Assembly: GCA_947494645.1 (NCBI GenBank)
Contig: CANLVO010000002.1
Coordinates: 676,359 to 740,358, forward strand
DNA: 64,000 bases
Source of the DNA: an uncultured Litoreibacter sp.
GTDB lineage: Bacteria > Pseudomonadota > Alphaproteobacteria > Rhodobacterales > Rhodobacteraceae
Direction of reading: 5' to 3'
Made by a program: the position numbers and the translations under genes. The notes beneath the pieces are model-generated. The model searched no databases, was not told the origin of the DNA, and was given only the letters and a program-made list of their open reading frames with translations. This document shows positions 2,001 to 20,727 of the stretch, piece after piece. Numbering within the stretch: the stretch's first letter is position 1; every line of letters begins with the position of its first letter.

Positions 2001-3316
2001 CAGTTCGGCTCCTTGGTCGAAGGGCCGTCATATTCAAACACCAGCGCAGAGACGTCGTCCTCGAAATCACCGCCGCCGTTAAACGCCGCCAGTTGGGCGT
2101 AGACATTGTCCAGAAACGCGCCGCGTCTGAGCGATTTGCGGCTGCGTAGAATTTTTCCAAGACCTTCGTCATCAAGCTGTGTGCCTGAGGCGTCCTCCGC
2201 CTCTGTCAGACCGTCAGAATGGAGGACCAGTCTGTCCCCGGGCGACAGGGTAAATTCAAATGTCTCGAACTTGGCATCTGGCAGCAGGCCAACGGGCATC
2301 CCGCCTGTCCCGCGTTTGATCAAAGTGCCGTCATGGCACATATGAAGCGGATGCGGGTGTCCGGCCTGCACGCAGCTGGTGTGTCCAGTGGCCAGGTCAA
2401 TGCAGGCCAATGCCAGGGTGAAATAAAGATCGGTGTTCATCTCCTGCAGCAATATTTCGTTGAGCTGACCGGCGGTCTGTCCGGGATCGCGCAGGTCAAA
2501 ATCGCCGCCGCCACGGTCAACCAACGCAATGTTTTGCGACGGAGAATACCCGCTCAAATAGCCAGCGAGCCGGGCAGTCATCAAAGCGGAGGCCACGCCG
2601 TGACCAGAGACATCCAATGAATACAATCCGATTTTGCTGTTGTTGGCAGAGAACTGCCCCACAAGGTCGCCGCCGATATGCCCGCTGGGATGCAGCATCA
2701 AGGTGGCGTGCCCGCCGATATAGGGCACACTCGTTTCCCGAACGAGCGATTGTTGCAGGCGCCGGGCCTCGGAAAGGTCGCGCTGGACGTTGTCGTAAAG
2801 CGACTGGATTGTGTCGAGCGCGTTGTTCACCACCCGGTTTTTCTGGATCAGCTGGGCGTGCATCTCGACGATACGTTCACCGGCGCGCAGTCGCGCTTTC
2901 AGCTCACCAAAGATGAAGGGTTTTGTCAGGAAGTCGTCCGCGCCGGAATTCAGCCCCTCAGCCACCTCCCTGCTTTCGCCTTTGCTGGTCAGCAGGATAA
3001 AGTAGCCGTACCCGAAGCGGTCAAGCTGCCGGAACGCATGGCAGAATTGCGGGCCATTCATGCCGGGCATGATCCAGTCGCTGATCACCATGGTCACGTC
3101 ATGGCTGCGACAAATCTCTAGCCCCGCCAAAGCGTTGTCGGCCTCCATCACCTCGTAGCCCCATTTGATCAGCGCTTTGGTCAGCATTTTCCGTTGCATG
3201 GCGCTGTCGTCGACCACCAGCACGAGGTGAGGCACCTCGGGATTGGTGACACCCTCATCATCCCATGTGTATGGGAGGTTGGGTTGCGGTTTGGGCAGTA
3301 GGTTAGATGCGGTCAT
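1997..3316 (-). CDS. Response regulator fused to PP2C-type (SpoIIE/RsbU) phosphatase; candidate RbaY
   Basis: About 439 residues from the start MTASNLLPKP at 3316; an in-frame ATG at 3346 is possible. Residues 30-150 form a receiver domain with acidic pocket VVDDS, phospho-acceptor D80 in MVISDWIMPGMNG, LLTSKG and K132 in FLTKPF. A helical linker (about 150-195) leads to a PP2C SpoIIE domain with metal ligands in GGDLVGQF and SLDVSGHGVASALMTA. The family dephosphorylates an anti-sigma-factor antagonist (STAS protein), so phosphorylation of the receiver would switch a partner-switching cascade. The same architecture is known for RbaY of Rhodobacter capsulatus, but no STAS protein or anti-sigma kinase lies nearby. 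It is divergent from a lone HPt gene, a plausible phosphodonor. The RbaY identity is inference. Confidence 0.88.
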   Translation of the reverse strand: MTASNLLPKPQPNLPYTWDDEGVTNPEVPHLVLVVDDSAMQRKMLTKALIKWGYEVMEADNALAGLEICRSHDVTMVISDWIMPGMNGPQFCHAFRQLDRFGYGYFILLTSKGESREVAEGLNSGADDFLTKPFIFGELKARLRAGERIVEMHAQLIQKNRVVNNALDTIQSLYDNVQRDLSEARRLQQSLVRETSVPYIGGHATLMLHPSGHIGGDLVGQFSANNSKIGLYSLDVSGHGVASALMTARLAGYLSGYSPSQNIALVDRGGGDFDLRDPGQTAGQLNEILLQEMNTDLYFTLALACIDLATGHTSCVQAGHPHPLHMCHDGTLIKRGTGGMPVGLLPDAKFETFEFTLSPGDRLVLHSDGLTEAEDASGTQLDDEGLGKILRSRKSLRRGAFLDNVYAQLAAFNGGGDFEDDVSALVFEYDGPSTKEPNC

Positions 3317-3446
3317 GGGGCTACATGACGTGCCGGTTCTTAACATGGTGTGAAGGTTAAAATGCGATGTAAACTTAGGTGCGTGACAAGGAAATGTTAA
3401 CGCAGCCGAGGCCAGATGACTGGCATGGAACACCATGGTGAGCGTG

Positions 3447-3761
3447 ATGATTGACTGGGACCGCGTGGCCGAACTGCGCCGCGATTTTGGGGAAGACGAC
3501 TTCGCCGAAATCGCCACCATGTTCCTGTCGGAAGTGCAAGCCAAGCTTGCTGCAATGCAAGCGCAACTCACCGATGATCTGGCAGAGGATTTTCATTTCG
3601 TGAAAGGCAGCGCCGCAAACCTAGGGTTCGAGCTGCTCTATAAGGAATGCTCATCCGCCGAGCTCAGGTCGCAATCCGACAGCGTGCAGACGTTAGTAAC
3701 GGTCTTCGAAGCCTCCAAAACAGAATTTCTGAATAAGACTGGGATCGAGTTAGCCGCCTAG
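3447..3761 (+). CDS. Single-domain histidine phosphotransfer (HPt) protein
   Basis: 104 residues from MIDWDRVAEL; I prefer the ATG at 3447 because GGTGAG precedes it by a few bases, although an in-frame ATG exists at 3435. The motif HFVKGSAANLG carries the phosphorylatable histidine (H50) and matches the HPt signature H-x-x-KGSA. The rest is predicted helical, as expected of the four-helix HPt fold. It lacks kinase and receiver domains, so it should shuttle phosphate between a remote hybrid kinase and a receiver. It lies head-to-head with the REC-PP2C gene, making that receiver its likely partner (inference). Confidence 0.85.
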   Translation: MIDWDRVAELRRDFGEDDFAEIATMFLSEVQAKLAAMQAQLTDDLAEDFHFVKGSAANLGFELLYKECSSAELRSQSDSVQTLVTVFEASKTEFLNKTGIELAA

Positions 3762-3768
3762 CTGAACC

Positions 3769-5016
3769 CTAAATCAAAAACTCCGACAGCACCGGGTCAT
3801 TGGTGATGTCGCGGTGATCAAAGCCCGCCTTTTTCATCCGGTCAAAGAGCGCGTCGAATGTCCCGGCTTCGCGGGTTTCGATCCCAATGAGCACGGTCCC
3901 GAAATTCCGAGCAGATTTCTTCAGATACTCGAACCGGGCGATGTCATCGTCAGGCCCAAGCAAGTCAAGAAACTCGCGCAACGCCCCGGGGCGCTGGGGC
4001 ATACGCAGCACAAAATATTTCTTGCGCCCCGCAAAGCGCATCGCCCTTTCCTTGACCTCCGGCAGGCGTTCAAAGTCAAAATTCCCGCCGGACGTGACGC
4101 AGACTACAGTCTTGCCAGCCACCTCGCTGCGCAGGTCTTCCAAAGCGTCCAGAACCAATGCGCCTGCAGGCTCCAGTACAATGCCTTCGATATTCAAGAA
4201 TTCCAGAATGGTGCCGCAAATCCTGTCTTCGGGAGCCAGATGCACGGCGCTGGGGGCCACGCCTTTCAGCTCAGCAAATGTGTGGGCCCCTATCCGGGCC
4301 ACCGCCGCGCCATCCACAAACGAATCGATATGAGGCAAGGTGACAGGTGCCCCGTCCTTTAACGCTGCCGTCAGGCTGGCCCCGCCGCTGGGTTCGATAT
4401 ACCGAAATTCCGTCTCCGGGGCGGCAACTGACATGAACTTGGTCATCCCCGCTGACAATCCGCCGCCGCCGACGGGCACCACAACCATGTCAGGTTTGCG
4501 GCCCAAGGCTTCCAGCATCTCCACCGCGACGGAGGCCTGCCCTTCGATCACGTCGGGGTCGTCAAAAGGTGAGAGGAAATGTGCTCCGATCTCGGCACAA
4601 TGGGATTGCGCGGCGGCAAGGGTCTGGTCGAAATAGTCCCCCGTCAGCCGGATCTTGATGCTGTCGCCCCCAAAAGCACGGGTCTTGTCGATCTTCTGTT
4701 GCGGCGTCGTGACGGGCATAAAAACTTCGCCCATCACGCCGAAATGGCGACACACAAAGGCAAAGCCCTGCGCATGATTGCCCGCGCTGGCGCAGACAAA
4801 GCGGTCCCTCTCGGTTTGGACATCACGCAGTTTGCGCATCGCGTTGAATGCACCCCTGATCTTGTAGGATCGCACCGGGGACAGGTCCTCCCGCTTGAGG
4901 TAGATCTCGGCATCGAACTTATCGGACAGGTAGTCGTTGCGCTGCAAGGGCGTCGGTTCAAACACGGCGCGCATCAGCGCGGTGGCGTCGCGGGCGGATG
5001 TCTCGAACTTGGTCAT
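3769..5016 (-). CDS. ilvA: Threonine ammonia-lyase (threonine dehydratase)
   Basis: 415 residues. The catalytic domain shows the PLP lysine in SYKIRGA (K52), the [10 protein letters not shown] loop and the glycine-rich phosphate-binding [10 protein letters not shown]. From about residue 335 follows an ACT-like regulatory domain ([20 protein letters not shown]), a single copy as in the roughly 400-residue forms of alphaproteobacteria and Gram-positives rather than the two copies of E. coli IlvA. It deaminates threonine to 2-oxobutanoate, the first committed step to isoleucine. The single ACT-like domain suggests allosteric control by branched-chain amino acids. It is convergent with the HPt gene, eight bases apart. 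Confidence 0.94.
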
Positions 5017-5172
5017 GATACGCGATGCCCTGCTTGCGGTTGCTTGATAGCGATTAGCGCAGCCATTTTGGCCCGGGTCAATCCAAGGTCAATCGAACGT
5101 CAATCCGGCAGCGGTCTTGCGCCCCGGCTGCAGCCGCGCTACCTCGCGGCAAACCAAATGGAGACCGCGCCC

Positions 5173-6402
5173 ATGTCCGCACCCAAGAAAGTTGTGCTCG
5201 CCTATTCGGGTGGCCTTGATACATCGATCATTCTCAAGTGGCTGCAGACTGAATATGGCTGCGAGGTCGTCACCTTCACCGCCGATCTTGGTCAGGGCGA
5301 AGAGCTGGAACCCGCGCGCCACAAGGCGGAGCTGCTGGGCATCAAGCCTGAGAATATCTTCATCGAAGATGTCCGCGAAGAGTTCGTACGCGACTTTGTC
5401 TTCCCGATGTTCCGGGCCAATTCGGTCTACGAGGGTCTGTACCTCTTGGGCACTTCGATCGCCCGGCCGTTGATTTCCAAACGCCTGGTTGAGATTGCGG
5501 AAGCAACTGGCGCAGATGCAGTGGCGCACGGGGCCACGGGCAAAGGCAACGATCAAGTGCGGTTCGAGCTGTCAGCTTACGCTCTGAACCCTGACATCAA
5601 GGTGATCGCGCCTTGGCGGGAATGGGACCTGTCGTCCCGGACAAAGCTTCTCGAGTTTGCCGAGGCGAACCAAATCCCGATTGCCAAGGACAAACGCGGT
5701 GAGGCTCCGTTCTCTGTCGATGCCAACCTGCTACATACGTCCTCCGAGGGCAAAGTGTTGGAAGACCCGGGCGAAGATGCGCCGGATTACGTCTATCAGC
5801 GGACAACCCATCCCGAAGACGCGCCCGATACGCCGGAATTCGTCGAGATCGGCTTTGAACGCGGCGACGCGGTCAGCATCAACGGCGAGGCGATGAGCCC
5901 GGCGACGATCCTGACCAAGCTGAATGAGCTGGGCGGCAAGCATGGCTGCGGGCGGCTTGATCTGGTCGAGGGGCGCTTTGTTGGGATGAAGTCGCGCGGT
6001 GTCTATGAAACGCCCGGCGGCACACTTCTTCTCGAGGCGCATCGCGGAATTGAATCGATCACGCTGGACCGCGGGGCTGCGCATCTCAAAGACGAGCTGA
6101 TGCCGCGCTACGCGGAGCTGATCTATAACGGCTTCTGGTTCTCGCCCGAGCGCGAGATGCTGCAGGCAGCGATTGATGCGTCACAGGCCTACGTTACAGG
6201 AACGGTTAAGCTGAAGCTCTACAAAGGCTCCGCACGCACGGTGGCGCGCTGGTCTGATCACTCGCTCTATTCAGAGGCGCATGTCACCTTTGAGGAGGAC
6301 GCGGGTGCCTATGACCAGACAGACGCAGCCGGGTTCATCCAACTCAACGCTTTGCGCTTAAAATTGCTGGCGGCGCGGGACAAGCGGGTTAAGAAGAGCT
6401 GA
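5173..6402 (+). CDS. argG: Argininosuccinate synthase
   Basis: 409 residues from [18 protein letters not shown]; the ATG at 5173 has TGGAGA about 9 bases upstream, while the ORF track start far upstream overlaps ilvA antisense and is not credible. The PP-loop ATP-binding motif AYSGGLDTS is at residues 10-18, and the citrulline/aspartate-binding segments [15 protein letters not shown] and [17 protein letters not shown] are intact. The enzyme joins citrulline and aspartate with ATP to make argininosuccinate in arginine biosynthesis. It stands alone, without other arg genes, as is common in alphaproteobacteria. It abuts the following minus-strand methyltransferase with no space between stops. 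Confidence 0.97.
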
Positions 6403-7116
6403 TTAGCGCTCCTTGACGAGCCGGGCCACGACGATACCGGGCTCAGTCTCGCTGTCGCGGGGCAGGGCATCAAAGACGGATGCATACATGTCGTGATCCT
6501 CGCGGGTCCGGTAGACGTTCTGCAGCTCCGTGCGGCAGCCCTCGAACTTGTCCATCACGTCAATCTTGAGACTGTGCGGCTCCGTGATGGTCGCGCGGTG
6601 ATTGATTTCGACAATCAAGAGCAACGTGCCGCCAACCTTGGTGACGCGCAGCGCCTCGGCGATGGCTGCGTCAACATTTTCGACATGATCAAGCGCGTTG
6701 AAGATCGACACGACATCGAAGGACTGGTCGTCAAACGGCATATCTTCTGCGCCCGTGTTCACATAGCGCATTGCCTGTTTGCCGCCGTTCAGCTTGACGT
6801 AGCTATCGGCCAACGGGTCAGCGCCCGTGCGGCTGGCAGCATTGTCGGCCCATTCCAGACTACCTGTCGGTCCGCACCCGATGTCGAGCATATGCTTGCC
6901 ATCGAAAAACGAGCGGTCCAGCGCAAAGCTTTCCGTAAAGGCTCGCAGCATATGGGCGTGCTGAAATTCACCTGTCTTGAAAAGATGCTTCTTCCAAAAC
7001 AACAGCTCGAACGACTTCTTGTACCATTCGCGCACGCCAACCGGGGCCACCTGCAAAACGACCGCGGCGCCGTTCTGAATCCCATTCGTCACAATTCTCA
7101 TCAATGAAACCTTCAT
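6403..7116 (-). CDS. Class I SAM-dependent methyltransferase
   Basis: 237 residues starting at MKVSLMRIVTNG (7116), chosen because AAAGAG lies a few bases upstream; the longer 298-residue ORF overlaps the neighbouring gene. Motif I is MLDIGCGPTGSLEW (about residues 76-89), followed by MRYVNTGAEDMPF and SFDVVSIFNALDHVENV, the usual Methyltransf_11 arrangement. The N-terminal 70 residues form a helical cap that may recognise the substrate. The acceptor cannot be predicted; a small-molecule, lipid or sugar substrate is typical of this subfamily. The gene follows the sulfotransferase-like gene on the same strand. Confidence 0.8.
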   Translation of the reverse strand: MKVSLMRIVTNGIQNGAAVVLQVAPVGVREWYKKSFELLFWKKHLFKTGEFQHAHMLRAFTESFALDRSFFDGKHMLDIGCGPTGSLEWADNAASRTGADPLADSYVKLNGGKQAMRYVNTGAEDMPFDDQSFDVVSIFNALDHVENVDAAIAEALRVTKVGGTLLLIVEINHRATITEPHSLKIDVMDKFEGCRTELQNVYRTREDHDMYASVFDALPRDSETEPGIVVARLVKER

Positions 7117-7238
7117 ATCTCTTTCGGCCCTCGGGAGTTGAAAGCCACCAGAATATGCGAAGATTCCTCTGAAATCTGCCGATATTATGGCATATGCCGC
7201 GAGCGCGGATATTTTGTGCGAAGACTTGCCGATTTGGC

Positions 7239-7937
7239 CTAGCCAGCCCGCAATCTTTGAGTGCGCAGTATCGCATAAGCAGGCAATGCGTCTTCGCACA
7301 GCTCGGCCAACGAACCTGATAGGTCAGGCAGTGGTCCCTCGCGACCTGCAAATCCGGTGCTTTGATGGGCGGCATTGTACCAATGCGAGGCCCAGATGCC
7401 GTCTGCTTCGTTTCCGCCCACGGGCCAGCTGAGCATTGCAGGATCAAAGGGCAGGTCCAGCGCAGCACAAAGTGCCATGAGCATGGTTTCAGGGTCATCC
7501 CGAACATCAGCACTGTCGAGGACGATGCCGCCAAACTCTTCATACAGGTCCAGTTGCTGCTCCACTCCGATATCGTCCAGCGTCACCTGTTCGCGTTTCT
7601 CATGGTAGCTGGACAGCACACGGGCTGGGTGGCGGATCAGGAAGACATGTTTGCAGTCCTCGGCCCAGTCCAGCGGGGTGTCTTCCAGGATGTGGTGACA
7701 CATATGCTTTTGGTAGACGTGAGCCGCACCATCTTTCGCACAGGTGGCCGCCGCAGAGTGCCAACGGGTGTCATGGGCGCGCATAATTTCAGCTGCCATC
7801 GGGTCGGGTCGGCCGGTTTCTTTCAGATATGCTGCGTAAAACGGTTCATCGAGCACGGTGAAATCGGAGCGGGCAGCGAAGCTGTACATCATCGCGGTCG
7901 ACAGGTTTCGCGGTCCAGACCAGCAGGCGATCTTCAT
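7239..7937 (-). CDS. Sulfotransferase-like P-loop protein
   Basis: 232 residues. The N-terminus KIACWSGPRNLSTAMMYSF (residues 2-20) resembles the 5'-phosphosulfate-binding loop of sulfotransferases, and VFLIRHPARVLSSYHEKR (about 98-115) resembles the 3'-phosphate-binding segment that contacts PAPS. AAAGGAG precedes the ATG. Short bacterial relatives of this kind are often annotated only as sulfotransferase-family, and their acceptors are unknown. The final residues are Arg/Leu rich without a localisation signal, so it is probably cytoplasmic. The methyltransferase gene begins about 120 bases beyond the stop on the same strand, so the two might act on one metabolite (inference). Confidence 0.7.
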   Translation of the reverse strand: MKIACWSGPRNLSTAMMYSFAARSDFTVLDEPFYAAYLKETGRPDPMAAEIMRAHDTRWHSAAATCAKDGAAHVYQKHMCHHILEDTPLDWAEDCKHVFLIRHPARVLSSYHEKREQVTLDDIGVEQQLDLYEEFGGIVLDSADVRDDPETMLMALCAALDLPFDPAMLSWPVGGNEADGIWASHWYNAAHQSTGFAGREGPLPDLSGSLAELCEDALPAYAILRTQRLRAG

Positions 7938-8100
7938 GGAAGCACGCTCCTTTGGGCGTCATTCAGCTATTGCTCACTAAACGGCGAAAAATGGCCACTT
8001 GGAAGCCACATTCGGTCGGTTTGTTCGTGGGGATTCACAAAAATGTGAGGCGGCACTATAAACGTGCCAAAAAAGAAATAAATCCAGAGGATGTATTGAG

Positions 8101-9276
8101 ATGAGCGATACTTCAATGAACGTAAACCCGGGCGAGACCCAGCAGGTCGTGTTTAACGGCAAGGCTGGCGAATGGTTCGGTATTTGGATCGTGAACCTGC
8201 TTCTGAGCATTGTGACGATCGGAATTTACTCGGCTTGGGCTAAAGTGCGCACCAAGAAATACTTCTACAACAACACGTTTATCGCAGGTCGCAACTTCGA
8301 CTACCACGCGACGGGCAAACAAATTCTGATCGGCCGGATCATCGTGATTGTGGGCTTTATCGCCTTCACCCTGCTTTCCGCGATCCCTTTTGTGAATATC
8401 ATTATGTTCCTGGCGCTGTTCGCTGCCTTGCCATGGTTGATCGTCAAATCCCTGCAATTCAACGCACGGCAGTCGAGCTTCTCGAATGTGCGGTTCAACT
8501 TTACCGGAAAGATGGGCCGGGCCTTTGTGGTCTACGTGCTTCTGCCGATTGTTCTTTACATCGCGATTGTAGCTGTTGGCGCTGGCGGCGGATTTTTGGC
8601 AGGACAAACCGGCTCTGTTGCGCTTGGCGCGCTGGCCGCTGTCGCGGTGCTGGTGATCTTGCTCTTTGCGATCCCAATCGTAGACCGCGCAATCAAGCGC
8701 TACGTGATCAACCATCACTGGCTTGGCAAAGCAGCATTTAGTTTCGATGCGGGCCTCAGCCCGTTCGTGAAAGCGCTGTCTCTGGCGCTGGCGTGGATCG
8801 TCTTGGTTGTTCTGGTCTCAGGCGTCTTGTTTGGCGCGTCCTTTGCCTCGCTGGCCGACATGTTCGTCAGCCTTGATGCAGGCGGGGAACCAACGCCGGG
8901 CCAACTTGGTCTGATCGGTCTAATCTACCTGCTGTTCTTTGTGGCCTTCCTGCCAGCGGGCTTCATCTACCAAGCACTGATCCGCAACGTGATGTATGAC
9001 AACACCCAGCTTGATGGGGGCCACAAGTTCCGCTCGACCGTGAAGGTCGGCAAGCTGATGTGGATCGCCATTTCCAACGCCTTTGTGGTCGCGATCAGCA
9101 TCGGTCTGATGTTGCCATGGGCCCAGATCCGGATGCAGTCCTATCTGGCGTCGCAAACCTTTGTTATCCCCGGCTCCTCGCTGGATGACTTCATCGGCGA
9201 GCAGCAGGCCGCAGGCAACGCTATTGGCGATGCGTATGGCGATCTTGAGGGTGTCGACTTCGGCGTCGGTATCTGA
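8101..9276 (+). CDS. DUF898 (YjgN-family) multi-pass membrane protein
   Basis: 391 residues. After a hydrophilic N-terminus, the segment FNGKAGEWFGIWIVNLLLSIVTIGIYSAWAKVRTKKYFYNNT is the diagnostic start of the DUF898/YjgN family. Six to seven hydrophobic spans follow, and the second half repeats the pattern (NVMYDNTQLDGGHKFRSTVKVGKLMWIAISN). The molecular function is unknown. The stop is three bases before the GTG of an M48 metallopeptidase gene, so the two are translationally linked. DUF898-M48 neighbours are known elsewhere in proteobacteria, which suggests that the membrane protein and the protease cooperate. The 163-base gap upstream should hold the operon promoter. Confidence 0.88.
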   Translation: MSDTSMNVNPGETQQVVFNGKAGEWFGIWIVNLLLSIVTIGIYSAWAKVRTKKYFYNNTFIAGRNFDYHATGKQILIGRIIVIVGFIAFTLLSAIPFVNIIMFLALFAALPWLIVKSLQFNARQSSFSNVRFNFTGKMGRAFVVYVLLPIVLYIAIVAVGAGGGFLAGQTGSVALGALAAVAVLVILLFAIPIVDRAIKRYVINHHWLGKAAFSFDAGLSPFVKALSLALAWIVLVVLVSGVLFGASFASLADMFVSLDAGGEPTPGQLGLIGLIYLLFFVAFLPAGFIYQALIRNVMYDNTQLDGGHKFRSTVKVGKLMWIAISNAFVVAISIGLMLPWAQIRMQSYLASQTFVIPGSSLDDFIGEQQAAGNAIGDAYGDLEGVDFGVGI

Positions 9277-15757: not shown

Positions 15758-16585
15758 ATGTCAAAAGCCCAGCTTGAGACCGCCATCGAAGCCGCTTGGG
15801 AAGGCCGCGATGCGATCACCTCCGCCACCACTGGCGAGACACGCGATGCGATCGAAGACACGCTGAACGCGCTCGACAGTGGCACGTTGCGGGTGGCTGA
15901 AAAGCAAGATGATGGCAGTTGGCATGTGAACCAATGGGCCAAGAAAGCGGTCCTCCTGGGTTTCCGCATTAAGGATATGGAGCAGCACGAGGGCGGCCCG
16001 CAAGGTACTGGCTGGTGGGACAAGGTCGACAGCAAATTCAAAGGTTGGGGCGAGGCGCAATGGAAAGCCGCAGGCTTCCGCGCCGTGCCGAACTGCGTGG
16101 TGCGCAAGTCAGCCTATATTGCGCCCGGCGTGGTTTTGATGCCGTCTTTCGTGAACCTTGGCGCGCATGTCGATGAGGGCACCATGGTCGATACATGGGC
16201 CACGGTCGGCTCCTGTGCGCAGATCGGCAAAAACGTGCACTTGTCGGGCGGCGTCGGCATTGGCGGGGTTCTTGAGCCGATGCAAGCCGGCCCCACAATC
16301 ATCGAGGATAATTGCTTCATCGGCGCCCGTTCCGAGGTGGTCGAAGGCTGCATCTTGCGCGAGGGCTCGGTTCTGGGCATGGGCGTCTTTATCGGCCAGT
16401 CCACCAAAATCGTGGATCGCGACACTGGCGAGGTCATGTATGGCGAGGTGCCGCCTTATTCCGTGGTCGTCGCAGGCTCCATGCCGTCCAAGAACGGCGT
16501 GAACCTTTATTGCGCGGTGATCGTGAAACGTGTCGATGCGAAGACACGCTCGAAGACCGGCATCAACGACCTGCTGCGGGACTAA
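15758..16585 (+). CDS. dapD: 2,3,4,5-tetrahydropyridine-2,6-dicarboxylate N-succinyltransferase
   Basis: 275 residues. The N-terminal helical domain ([12 protein letters not shown]) is followed by [63 protein letters not shown], a left-handed beta-helix of hexapeptide repeats diagnostic for DapD. It transfers succinyl from succinyl-CoA to tetrahydrodipicolinate in the succinylase branch of lysine and meso-diaminopimelate synthesis. The partner dapE lies 3 kb downstream on the same strand, so the pathway is locally clustered though interrupted by three other genes. Confidence 0.97.
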
Positions 16586-16620: not shown

Positions 16621-16869
16621 ATGGGTATCGGATTTATTGGCGGCATTATCGTAGGCGGATTGGCTGGCTGGGTGGCCAGCATGATCATGAAGGCGCAAAC
16701 CGGGGTGCTCGGGAATATCGCGCTCGGTGTGCTTGGCGCCGTTGTCTTGAACCTGCTGCTATCCTTCGTTGGCATCTACGCTGAAAATGCATGGATGCCG
16801 CAGCTGATCGTTGGCGCGGCAGGCGCGTGCCTCTTGATCTGGGCCTATCGCGCGATCAAAAGCCGCTAA
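16621..16869 (+). CDS. GlsB/YeaQ/YmgE-family small membrane protein
   Basis: 82 residues preceded by a strong GGAGG site. GFIGGIIVGGLAGWVASMIMK with the GVLGNIALGVLGAVVLNLLL span is typical of the transglycosylase-associated / GlsB family, with three membrane segments. The family is stress-induced in several bacteria, but its activity is not known. It follows dapD by 35 bases and may be read with it. Its TAA overlaps the TAG of the convergent receptor-like gene within the four bases CTAA. Confidence 0.85.
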   Translation: MGIGFIGGIIVGGLAGWVASMIMKAQTGVLGNIALGVLGAVVLNLLLSFVGIYAENAWMPQLIVGAAGACLLIWAYRAIKSR

Positions 16870-17924
16870 TTGCCCGCACCAAACCATTTTGCCCGCAAGG
16901 CGCTATAGCGACCGTCTTCGCGCAGCCGCAGCAGGCCTTGATTGATCTGCTCGCGCAGCGGGCTGCCGGTGGGCAGAGCCATGCCGTAATTCTCGGGTTT
17001 GAACACGCGAGGCACCATCCGGGCAATGCCGCTGCCGCGCGTGGTGGCGTAATACGACAGGATCGGGCCATCGAAGAACACCGCGTCCAAGGCGCTGTCT
17101 TCAAAGTCCTGTAGCATCAGATCCAACCCATCATAGGAAATCGAGGCAATCTCGCGCTGGTCCAGAAACTGCTCTGCGGTCGAACCCGCGATGGTGCCCA
17201 CACGCCGTCCGTCCAAATCGTTGATTGACTCGACGCTGCTTTGCAACGCGTCCACGGTCATAGCGGCGGTGATCTTCGCCACAAATACTGAGACTAAAAA
17301 CAGGCTGGCGAAGACCAGCGTAACGGCAAAGAACCGACCGGGGCGGGAGATCGGCATGCGTTCCTCAAAACCGCCATTGACCACCAGATTGAGCGCCCAC
17401 CAGAAAGACGGAAAAAGCGCGTCCTTTGCATCTCGGTCAAAAAATGGTTGGCGGCGCCTTTCAAACACCCACATCAGCATTCCGCCGCCAAACAACAATC
17501 CGATGGCAACCAGCACCGCCACGGCGATGTCGCGGGTCAAAAGCGCGTTCAAGATCGAGCCGGTCGAATTGTCAAAAGGCAGCATGATCTGCAGCCCGCT
17601 GTCGAATATCGGCTGCGAGAAATCCATGATCCCCTCGCGCTCCGCCGTGATCGAAATATTGGCGATGGCGCCATCCACCTGCCGGGCGACAACCAGATCA
17701 AGCATGTCCTGAAAGTTCTCGGTACGGACGAAGTCCGTTTGCAGCCCAAGGTCGGCGGCCAACATGGACCACAGCTCAATGCTGAAGCCAACGCTTTCGT
17801 CGTTCTCTTCCATCGAGAACGGAGCGCGGGTCACGGTGGAAATGGTGATGGAGCCGTCCTGGGCTACGACAGGTTGCGCCCATGGCAAAAGGGCCAGCGT
17901 GGCCAGAAAAAACAGTCGGTACAT
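16866..17924 (-). CDS. Prokaryotic ionotropic glutamate-receptor-like channel (S1-TM1-P-TM2-S2)
   Basis: 352 residues. Residues 1-22 are a signal peptide. A periplasmic solute-binding lobe S1 (about 23-125, ending in PFDNS) is interrupted by TM1 (about 132-152), a re-entrant loop FPSFWWALNLVVNGGFEERMP (about 171-191) and TM2 (about 196-217); the second lobe S2 resumes with INDLDGRRVGTIAGSTAEQFL and ends at the C-terminus. This is the GluR0 plan, not that of a soluble ABC binding protein. FVAKITAAMTV at the end of TM2 resembles the gate motif of iGluRs. The pore loop lacks TVGYG; the aligned segment reads VNGGFE, so potassium selectivity is not predicted. The ligand is probably an amino acid. 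Confidence 0.82.
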   Translation of the reverse strand: MYRLFFLATLALLPWAQPVVAQDGSITISTVTRAPFSMEENDESVGFSIELWSMLAADLGLQTDFVRTENFQDMLDLVVARQVDGAIANISITAEREGIMDFSQPIFDSGLQIMLPFDNSTGSILNALLTRDIAVAVLVAIGLLFGGGMLMWVFERRRQPFFDRDAKDALFPSFWWALNLVVNGGFEERMPISRPGRFFAVTLVFASLFLVSVFVAKITAAMTVDALQSSVESINDLDGRRVGTIAGSTAEQFLDQREIASISYDGLDLMLQDFEDSALDAVFFDGPILSYYATTRGSGIARMVPRVFKPENYGMALPTGSPLREQINQGLLRLREDGRYSALRAKWFGAGN

Positions 17925-18033
17925 GGTTTGATCACCCTTCCCCCGGATCGTCGCGCTTACCTATCTGCTTGCGTGGCGTGGCTCAATGGGTTTGACACAT
18001 GTCACCCAGACCCTCGCAATTGTCGGAGCGGAC

Positions 18034-18438
18034 ATGCCCAAAACTGAAAGCAAGCATCAAGTCTATACCCTTCTTGTGCAGGTGGGTCGCAGCGCCGATG
18101 ACGGGATGCCCGAAGGGGCCTCTGGTGCCGCGATGGTCTGTTATTCGACCGGGATCGACGAGGCAGAGGCCGTTCGCGAATGCGTCGCCCTTCTCAAGCG
18201 CGCCGGGCTCGCGCCGCTTGATGTCACGGGCTATGGCAGCCTGTCTGAACGTCTGGCAGAGGGGCATGACATCCCCGAAGAAGAGACAGAGTTGATGCAG
18301 CGCGCGCTTGATGAGAATTCCGTGGTCGTGGCGCAAACGACAACTCTCTACGATGAAGAGGATAGCAACGGGGCAGAGGCAAAGGCCTTAAAGCCGGGCA
18401 AACCTGCCGGATCAAAGAAGGGCAGTAAGAAAGGTTAG
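18034..18438 (+). CDS. Conserved-looking hypothetical protein with Lys-rich tail
   Basis: 134 residues from MPKTESKHQVYTLLVQVG; GGAG lies 6 bases before this ATG, which is why I reject the ORF track start at 17986. The first 115 residues have an alternating strand/helix pattern that would fit a small alpha/beta fold, and the end is a basic low-complexity tail (KPGKPAGSKKGSKKG) that may bind nucleic acid or membrane. No family is recognised. It is divergent from the receptor-like gene and convergent with the Hint gene through a four-base stop overlap (TTAG). Confidence 0.65.
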   Translation: MPKTESKHQVYTLLVQVGRSADDGMPEGASGAAMVCYSTGIDEAEAVRECVALLKRAGLAPLDVTGYGSLSERLAEGHDIPEEETELMQRALDENSVVVAQTTTLYDEEDSNGAEAKALKPGKPAGSKKGSKKG

Positions 18439-19094
18439 CTTTGGTAGCCGGATTTATGTTCGGCCGCGAAACAGCGCGCTTCTTCCTGAGAAAGAACCTT
18501 GCCGATGGACTGGCCGGATTTCGGCATGCTTTCGACCGCACATTTTCCGATGCTCAACGCCGCCGCATGTTCCAGCTGCACTTGGTACAGGTCCGTGTTG
18601 GGGGCCATTTCCCAATGCTGCGCCTTGCGTCCGTCTTTCAAAGCCCAGATCGGGACCAGCACAGTTTCAGCACCGAAAAGATACTCAGCAATGTCGGAAG
18701 TGACGGCGATGCGGTGATCCGGGCCAACGACAAGGTCCTGATCCAAACCGTAGTAGGGCGCGCGAATACATATCGCGGTCTTCGCCGTCGGGGTCTTCAG
18801 AATATGGCGCACAGCGACTGCGGCCCCTGACGGGTCCAGCACCATGTCGCCGGGATTGAGGTCTTGCACCGCGACCTGACCCGTCGGCGTTGCCACACGC
18901 GTGCTGCCCAAAAGCCCGGTTTCCGGACGTGCTTGCGGCGTATCATTGGTGTTGGCATGGTCGAGACCCGGAGTGGCATAGGCGGTTTGGGTGCCATTAA
19001 CCTGTGCCAGATCCGCCTTGATCCGCGACGACAACAGCTCTGCACGGCCCAAAAAGCCGAGGCTGCTTCCGTTCTGGATCGTAATACGGGTCAT
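18435..19094 (-). CDS. Hint-domain protein (Hedgehog/intein fold)
   Basis: 219 residues. After about 60 N-terminal residues the segment LLGSTRVATPTGQVAVQDLNPGDMVLDPSG matches the opening of bacterial Hint domains (usually CFARGTRIATPxG...VExLxPGDxVL). VVGPDHRIAVTS matches the second block with its conserved histidine. The nucleophilic cysteine expected at the start of the domain is replaced by glycine, and no C-terminal His-Asn is evident, so self-splicing or autoproteolysis looks unlikely. Similar stand-alone Hint proteins are abundant in roseobacters, with unknown function. GGAAGA precedes the ATG. Confidence 0.8.
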   Translation of the reverse strand: MTRITIQNGSSLGFLGRAELLSSRIKADLAQVNGTQTAYATPGLDHANTNDTPQARPETGLLGSTRVATPTGQVAVQDLNPGDMVLDPSGAAVAVRHILKTPTAKTAICIRAPYYGLDQDLVVGPDHRIAVTSDIAEYLFGAETVLVPIWALKDGRKAQHWEMAPNTDLYQVQLEHAAALSIGKCAVESMPKSGQSIGKVLSQEEARCFAAEHKSGYQS

Positions 19095-19578: not shown

Positions 19579-20727
19579 ATGACACAGCCGGTTGACCCCG
19601 TCTCTTTGACTGCCGATCTGGTCAAATGCGCCTCGGTGACGCCTGATGAAGGTGGCGCATTGAGCGTGCTGTCCGCGCTGCTCGAAGGTGCCGGGTTTGA
19701 ATGCCACCGGGTGGATCGCGGCGCTGTCAGCAATCTTTACGCGCGCTGGGGCCCACGTGGCGCAAACCGCAGTTTTGGGTTCAATGGGCACACAGATGTG
19801 GTCCCTGTGGGCGATCTCGACGCATGGAGCGTCGATCCATTCGGAGCCGAAATTCGCGATGGCTGGCTCTATGGCCGCGGAGCGACGGACATGAAGTCAG
19901 GCGTCGCAGCCTTTGCCGCTGCCGCCGTGGATTTTGTGCGCGAGACGCCCCCCAACGGTGCGGTGATCCTTGCCATCACAGGGGACGAAGAAGGCGACGC
20001 GGTCGATGGCACAAGGGCGTTGTTGGATTGGATGAAGACCCAGGGCGAGGTGATGACCGACTGTCTGGTGGGGGAGCCGACCTGCCCCGAAACCATGGGC
20101 GAGATGATCAAAATCGGGCGGCGCGGCTCGATGACCGTGTTCTTCACGGTGAAAGGCAAGCAAGGCCACGCGGCGTATCCACATCGCGCGCTGAACCCGA
20201 TGCCGATCATGGCGCGGTTGATCAGCCGGTTATCAACGCATGAGATGGACCAAGGCACAGAGCATTTCGACCCCTCCACTTTGCAATGCACCACAATCGA
20301 CGCGGGCAACCCGGCCACCAACGTGATCCCGGCAGAGTGCCGCGCGACGGTGAATATCCGCTTCAACGATGCCCATAGCTCGGACAGTGTCACCGCTTGG
20401 CTGCAAGGTGAGGCTGACGCCTTGGCTCTCGAGACCGGCGCTGTGATCGAGATGCGCGTCAGGGTCTCAGGCGAAAGCTTCGTGACGCCTCCAGGTCCGT
20501 TGTCAGCTTTGGTGGCAGACGCGGTGAAGGCCGAAACCGGCGTCACACCCGAGATGTCGACCACGGGAGGTACGTCAGACGCACGGTTCGTCAAAGACCA
20601 CTGCCCGGTTGTGGAGTTCGGCCTCGTCGGCAAGACCATGCACGCCGTTGATGAGCGGGTCGAGGTCGCCCAAATCCATCAACTTAAAGCCGTCTACAGC
20701 CGCATCTTGCGGGATTACTTTGCGTAG
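19579..20727 (+). CDS. dapE: Succinyl-diaminopimelate desuccinylase
   Basis: 382 residues with AAGGAG upstream of the ATG. Metal-site motifs of the M20 family are intact: [22 protein letters not shown] and [12 protein letters not shown]. The dimerisation lid domain begins around [22 protein letters not shown]. The enzyme hydrolyses N-succinyl-LL-diaminopimelate to LL-DAP and succinate, downstream of DapD. Its last codons overlap the start of the DUF2064 gene, implying coupling. Confidence 0.96.

Follow-up and report, generated by a model that had tools for sequence, protein, structure and literature searches.

A Litoreibacter glutamate receptor homologue with a conserved NGGFEE pore loop: a candidate amino-acid-gated channel without K+ selectivity

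The experimental literature that we found on bacterial glutamate receptors concerns GluR0 of Synechocystis (slr1257), a Group 1 prokaryotic ionotropic glutamate receptor (iGluR) whose filter is of the K+ type and which acts as a K+ channel; an iGluR topology, in which the P loop faces the cytoplasm, has been demonstrated for it, and it rescues K+-uptake-deficient E. coli (PMC13099474). Ger et al. (2010) catalogued ten further prokaryotic iGluR homologues (Group 2, including YP_168531.1), whose P regions resemble those of no channel of known selectivity, which were noted to be nearer to eukaryotic receptors, and whose pore type was left undefined (PMC2950845). For the Nostoc punctiforme GluR0, the ligand-binding core alone has been solved, with L-glutamate (2pyy). 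Animal receptors with Asn or Gln at the Q/R/N site are more permeable to Ca2+ and discriminate little among monovalent cations, and polyamine block in them is controlled by an acidic residue four positions past that site (PMC12226733); in GluA2, Ca2+ sites have been modelled at Q586 and at G588/C589/D590 (PMC9976283).

Here we describe a homologue of these receptors from a marine bacterium, an uncultured Litoreibacter sp. (Rhodobacteraceae), encoded in a window of 64,000 nucleotides (the whole stretch of DNA that was analysed), which we think is rather probably an amino-acid-gated cation channel of the prokaryotic iGluR family, without K+ selectivity. Its features and conserved neighbours, in window positions, are:

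15758-16585, plus strand: dapD, conserved flank (Pfam)
16866-17924 exactly, minus strand: prokaryotic ionotropic glutamate receptor homologue (NGGFEE subfamily), coding sequence, 352 aa, start codon ATG (ORF; Pfam Lig_chan, Lig_chan-Glu_bd and SBP_bac_3)
17862-17924, minus strand: signal peptide for periplasmic export, residues 1-21 (hydrophobic N-terminus to QPVVAQ, by eye)
17574-17861, minus strand: S1 half of the ligand-binding domain, residues 22-117, including Arg96 (alignment to 2pyy and GlnBP)
17460-17534, minus strand: TM1, residues 131-155 (hydropathy; model helix)
17358-17414, minus strand: re-entrant pore helix and filter, residues 171-189, FPSFWWALNLVVNGGFEER (top-residue frequency, pN/pS)
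17361-17378, minus strand: NGGFEE filter signature, residues 183-188, replacing TVGYGD (HMMER to GluA1; MAFFT to TVGYGD homologues)
17238-17345, minus strand: TM2, residues 194-229, with the gate-like end FVAKITAAMTV (model helix; gapless alignment to SYTANLAAFLTV)
16878-17237, minus strand: S2 half of the ligand-binding domain, residues 230-349, including Ser248/Thr249 and Asp285 (alignment to 2pyy)
17986-18438, plus strand: conserved 150-aa hypothetical gene, divergent neighbour
19579-20727, plus strand: dapE, conserved flank (Pfam)

Three Pfam families match the 352-aa protein: SBP_bac_3, the best-scoring (90.8 bits), Lig_chan (PF00060; 48.9 bits, cut-off 30.8) and Lig_chan-Glu_bd (39.1 bits, cut-off 30), and all three were matched in 41/41 aligned relatives. 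An AF2 model of the monomer, built on an alignment of 41 relatives (pLDDT 82.7, pTM 0.60), has helices for TM1 (131-155), the pore helix (166-183) and a long TM2 (194-229); AMPA and NMDA receptors, together with the 2pyy ligand-binding domain, make up the best 50 solved structures that Foldseek found with it (E about 1e-21 to 1e-20). The closest PDB sequence is also 2pyy (E 7e-41; profile 2.6e-63), and the profile matches the ligand-binding domain of GluR0 itself (1iit, 1ii5). Residues 1-21 are poorly conserved and modelled with low confidence; the signal-peptide-like start seen there by eye, and the Arg-rich stretches on either side of the P loop (the ERRR loop directly after TM1, taken as cytoplasmic, and another following the filter), agree with iGluR topology and a cytoplasmic-side P loop. 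An earlier note, made from the sequence alone, had proposed the order S1-TM1-P-TM2-S2, a gate-like stretch after TM2 and a kinship with GluR0-like receptors; the order is upheld by Pfam, by the relatives and by the model helices, the gate by the gapless alignment to the GluA1 gate region, and the kinship by the Lig_chan score, the whole-receptor fold match and the closeness of the Nostoc core. The two central hydrophobic segments, on whose forming a pore domain that proposal depended, are a pore domain in the predicted fold (AF2, Foldseek).

The protein thus has the S1 and S2 halves flanking two transmembrane helices and a P loop (Pfam, model helices) that define GluR0-like prokaryotic iGluRs, and shares with GluR0 the domain order and the absence of an N-terminal domain and of M4. 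With animal NMDA and AMPA receptors (about 20% identity) it has in common the ligand-binding domain and pore fold, the gate segment and an acidic residue just below the filter, and with NMDA receptors also an Asn at the Q/R/N position; unlike these receptors, it has no N-terminal domain, M4 or C-terminal domain, stopping at residue 352 directly after S2. It is therefore NMDA-type in filter resemblance only, and not an NMDA-receptor member.

The amino-acid-binding Arg of S1 and Asp of S2 expected of a GluR0-like receptor are both present: Arg96 is found in 148/156 homologues and Asp285 in 146/156, and within the clade Arg96, Ser248, Thr249 and Asp285 each stand at 99-100%. The position of Asp10 of GlnBP is taken by Val31, and, set against GlnBP and 2pyy, the residues of the pocket would point away from glutamine as ligand. 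The Nostoc protein has an Arg at the Val31 position (profile alignment), so the side-chain pocket probably differs from that of the Nostoc receptor.

The pore loop reads FPSFWWALNLVVNGGFEERMP. In MAFFT alignment, VNGGFEER occupies the K+ signature position of K+-type homologues, as the earlier note had noticed for VNGGFE, and the replacement is common to the whole clade; GluR0, by comparison, has its K+-type filter, and the TVGYGD-type filter of Group 1 is absent here, which, as in Group 2, leaves a protein of iGluR topology lacking any recognised K+ filter. In the HMMER alignment Asn183 falls on the Q/R site of GluA1 (MQQGCD) and Glu187 on the GluA1 Asp, the acidic site just below the Q/R/N site, with a one-residue gap near the filter relative to AMPA receptors (the extra residue being in the bacterial protein). 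NMDA receptor GluN1 has LNSGIGEGAP at the corresponding place (peptide checked against the PDB), and by eye, though not by profile alignment, VNGGFEERMP can be set against it with no gap. A pore-only search gave GLR3.4 (4e-4) and GluA1 (0.004) ahead of KcsA-type chains (0.025 or worse). No GGFEE was found among the animal pores compared, and NGGFEE is identical to no animal filter there. This filter looks like one of the animal Q/R/N-site kind, and not merely like a missing TVGYGD.

Is NGGFEE a peculiarity of one genome? A whole-protein search (E <= 1e-30) gave a match in 46/199 genomes of the family (one genome per genus almost throughout), a few of them being paralogues with other filters; the NGGFEE subfamily is thus present in about a fifth of the sampled Rhodobacteraceae genera, and the main-clade members in this survey have NGGFEE in all but three cases. 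The contig search was biased, with NGGFEERM among its six seeds, and the 199-genome survey is independent of it. When the clade was delimited by ligand-binding-domain identity alone, the filter not being used, 117/120 relatives had NGGFEE, many more than chance would give, and the other three differed from it by one to three residues. Within a phylum-wide sample, the form occurred only in Rhodobacteraceae, other families having TVGYGD, TQAGAAQ, TQA-D and further filters. On a binding-domain tree, NGGFEE requires two changes, versus 24.8 with shuffled labels (by a quick method, with several forks open). NGGFEE is a subfamily mark, neither an isolated oddity nor a decay product.

Other filters were met along the way. 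Further non-K+ loops occur in plasmid homologues with 26-32% identity, one being TSGRxxxRKNLFGW in Paracoccus. One alphaproteobacterial genome has four iGluR-like genes in tandem (L170, G706:C64:1000-13000, about 3069-9059, reverse), with filters LNEAGD, SANIDE and SENVVD and with neither TVGYGD nor NGGFEE. In L092 and L093 (same class, family f8) and on a Kovacikia plasmid (L184) the filter is shorter by two residues (TQA-DQMPR, GQDVTMPR) and comes close in length and layout to the AMPA QQGCDISPR loop. A homologue with the non-K+ loop TTGKTSHK lies on the conjugative IncFII plasmid pCFSAN024579 of Salmonella enterica (L185, 2926-3981), downstream of an ISNCY transposase, and is annotated as a substrate-binding protein. 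Lastly L108 (G436, same class), a near outgroup of the NGGFEE clade, has TMGGFEKE, apparently an intermediate between TVGYGD and NGGFEE, which would be of use in tracing the filter change.

No other segment of the protein is as constrained as the pore loop. Its mean top-residue frequency (residues 171-189) is 0.97, versus 0.65 for S1 and 0.64 for S2, in 97 sequences less than 85% identical and picked partly by filter, and the 13 loop residues outside NGGFEE are mostly at 0.94-1.00 as well. The ratio pN/pS, usable only as a comparison between segments as pS is about 0.6 and close to saturation, is 0.010 for the pore loop, 0.081 for TM2, 0.126 for TM1, 0.189 for S2 and 0.204 for S1; pS is not reduced in the loop, and there is synonymous variation at each filter codon. 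This strongest constraint, together with a signature common to the whole clade, argues against a relaxed, dead pore and leads us to reject a decayed K+ filter; given its near-invariance across many related bacteria, the NGGFEE loop probably does a job.

The same evidence bears on the first of the rival explanations, that the protein is a membrane-anchored amino-acid sensor which has lost conduction and signals via conformational change. Some animal receptors do signal without flux, and the NGGFEE protein has no K+ signature; however, relaxation would be expected of a non-conducting loop, where we see the reverse, and the homologous loci showed no signalling gene conserved beside the receptor gene. 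We regard such a sensor as unlikely, and of the two options in the earlier note, different selectivity or a sensor that lost conduction, the constraint on the loop favours the former. More doubtful again is a ligand-gated channel that still prefers K+, the GGFE backbone retaining enough of the GYG geometry: Gly185-Phe186, lined up with TVGYGD, do retain the Gly and the aromatic residue of GYG, and the pore fold is common to K+ channels (weak KcsA-type matches), but within TVGYG the Thr, the Val and the second Gly have given way to Asn, Gly and Glu, and in two genomes holding an NGGFEE gene (L150 in G003, L139 in G104) a separate TVGYGD paralogue persists (L166 and L167, respectively). Hardly credible, finally, is an ABC-transporter substrate-binding protein carrying an odd membrane insert, which has in its favour the best Pfam match and the label 'transporter substrate-binding domain-containing protein' given to homologues, but is rejected on genome position and neighbours: family 3 binding proteins are soluble, with a permease/ATPase partner, whereas this protein has two transmembrane helices, a Lig_chan match above that family's own cut-off and a fold matching whole receptors, the closest BPD_transp_1 permease gene is about 96 kb off in the same genome, and the 672 ORFs neighbouring the gene in related loci contain no permease motif, so that the association with ABC subunits which would have spoken against a receptor did not materialise. 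The annotation itself hides the receptor, as had been foreseen; the plasmid homologues, where annotated, bear that transporter label only.

Returning to an amino-acid-gated channel without K+ selectivity, we propose, by analogy with the family, that four copies of the protein would assemble around a pore in the inner membrane. A periplasmic amino acid, bound between S1 and S2 by Arg96, Ser248, Thr249 and Asp285 (as homology suggests), would close the clamshell, which would pull on the TM2 gate and open the path. The narrowest ring would be that of the four Asn183 side chains, with rings of Glu187 and Glu188 at the cytoplasmic mouth, and such a filter would be expected to let Na+, and probably Ca2+, through instead of selecting K+. 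The effect of opening would then be a depolarised cell or a signal carried by incoming cations. Judged by the animal receptors the channel is possibly Ca2+/Na+-permeable; that it is a bacterial amino-acid-gated channel with an NMDA-like Asn filter, admitting both Na+ and Ca2+, we suggest tentatively, as a reading that may well not hold in full.

The receptor gene is flanked by dapD and dapE, both of them on the other strand. Among 128 homologous loci, many of which are short contigs, so that flank counts are affected, dapD is near the gene in 96, the 150-aa gene in 110 and dapE in 78. The 150-aa protein has no Pfam match; its gene accompanies the dapD-dapE block in most relatives, whether the receptor gene is present or absent. 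Several genomes without the receptor gene (e.g. L171, of the same genus) retain dapD, the 150-aa gene and dapE, so the receptor gene was likely lost or gained at a fixed site. A functional link to dapD and dapE was considered and rejected, as the gene runs opposite to the two dap genes and the dap neighbourhood is unchanged in genomes without it; we treat the conserved placement as one of position, not pathway. Six diverged paralogues (L164-L169) stand without dapD, the 150-aa gene or dapE, and five of their filters are clearly different, the sixth being NASFTI. Adjoining the 150-aa gene in the window (18435-19094) is a gene for a Hint-domain protein (PF13403), and a related Hint gene is close by in 60/128 related loci, about half.

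How far is this receptor new? With Group 2 it shares the S1-TM1-P-TM2-S2 order, the signal peptide (in most Group 2 members), the S1 Arg and S2 Asp, the lack of a recognised K+ filter and mis-annotation as an ABC binding protein. YP_168531.1, of that group, is presumably a Ruegeria pomeroyi protein. What goes beyond the Group 2 account is one defined pore class, with its extreme constraint, its locus and its Q/R/N placement. The earlier note was right in reading a non-K+ filter, but the kind is not new, non-K+ prokaryotic iGluRs having been catalogued already (PMC2950845); the additions to this known kind are the NGGFEE subfamily, the constraint, the locus and the Q/R/N-type reading. We found nothing in the literature on a roseobacter glutamate receptor, and no paper on the NGGFEE subfamily in a search covering few subscription journals.

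The NGGFEE subfamily is broadly kept and usually single-copy, and it supplies a minimal receptor of 352 aa with two transmembrane helices, a setting for testing how iGluR pores may be non-selective among cations or Ca2+-permeable without M4 or an N-terminal domain. It bears on whether the Asn-tipped pore type predates eukaryotes or arose separately, and it represents a class of likely ion channels concealed by transporter annotation in many marine bacteria. If our reading is true, glutamate-receptor pores that are not K+-selective, and are possibly Ca2+-permeable, exist and persist in bacteria.
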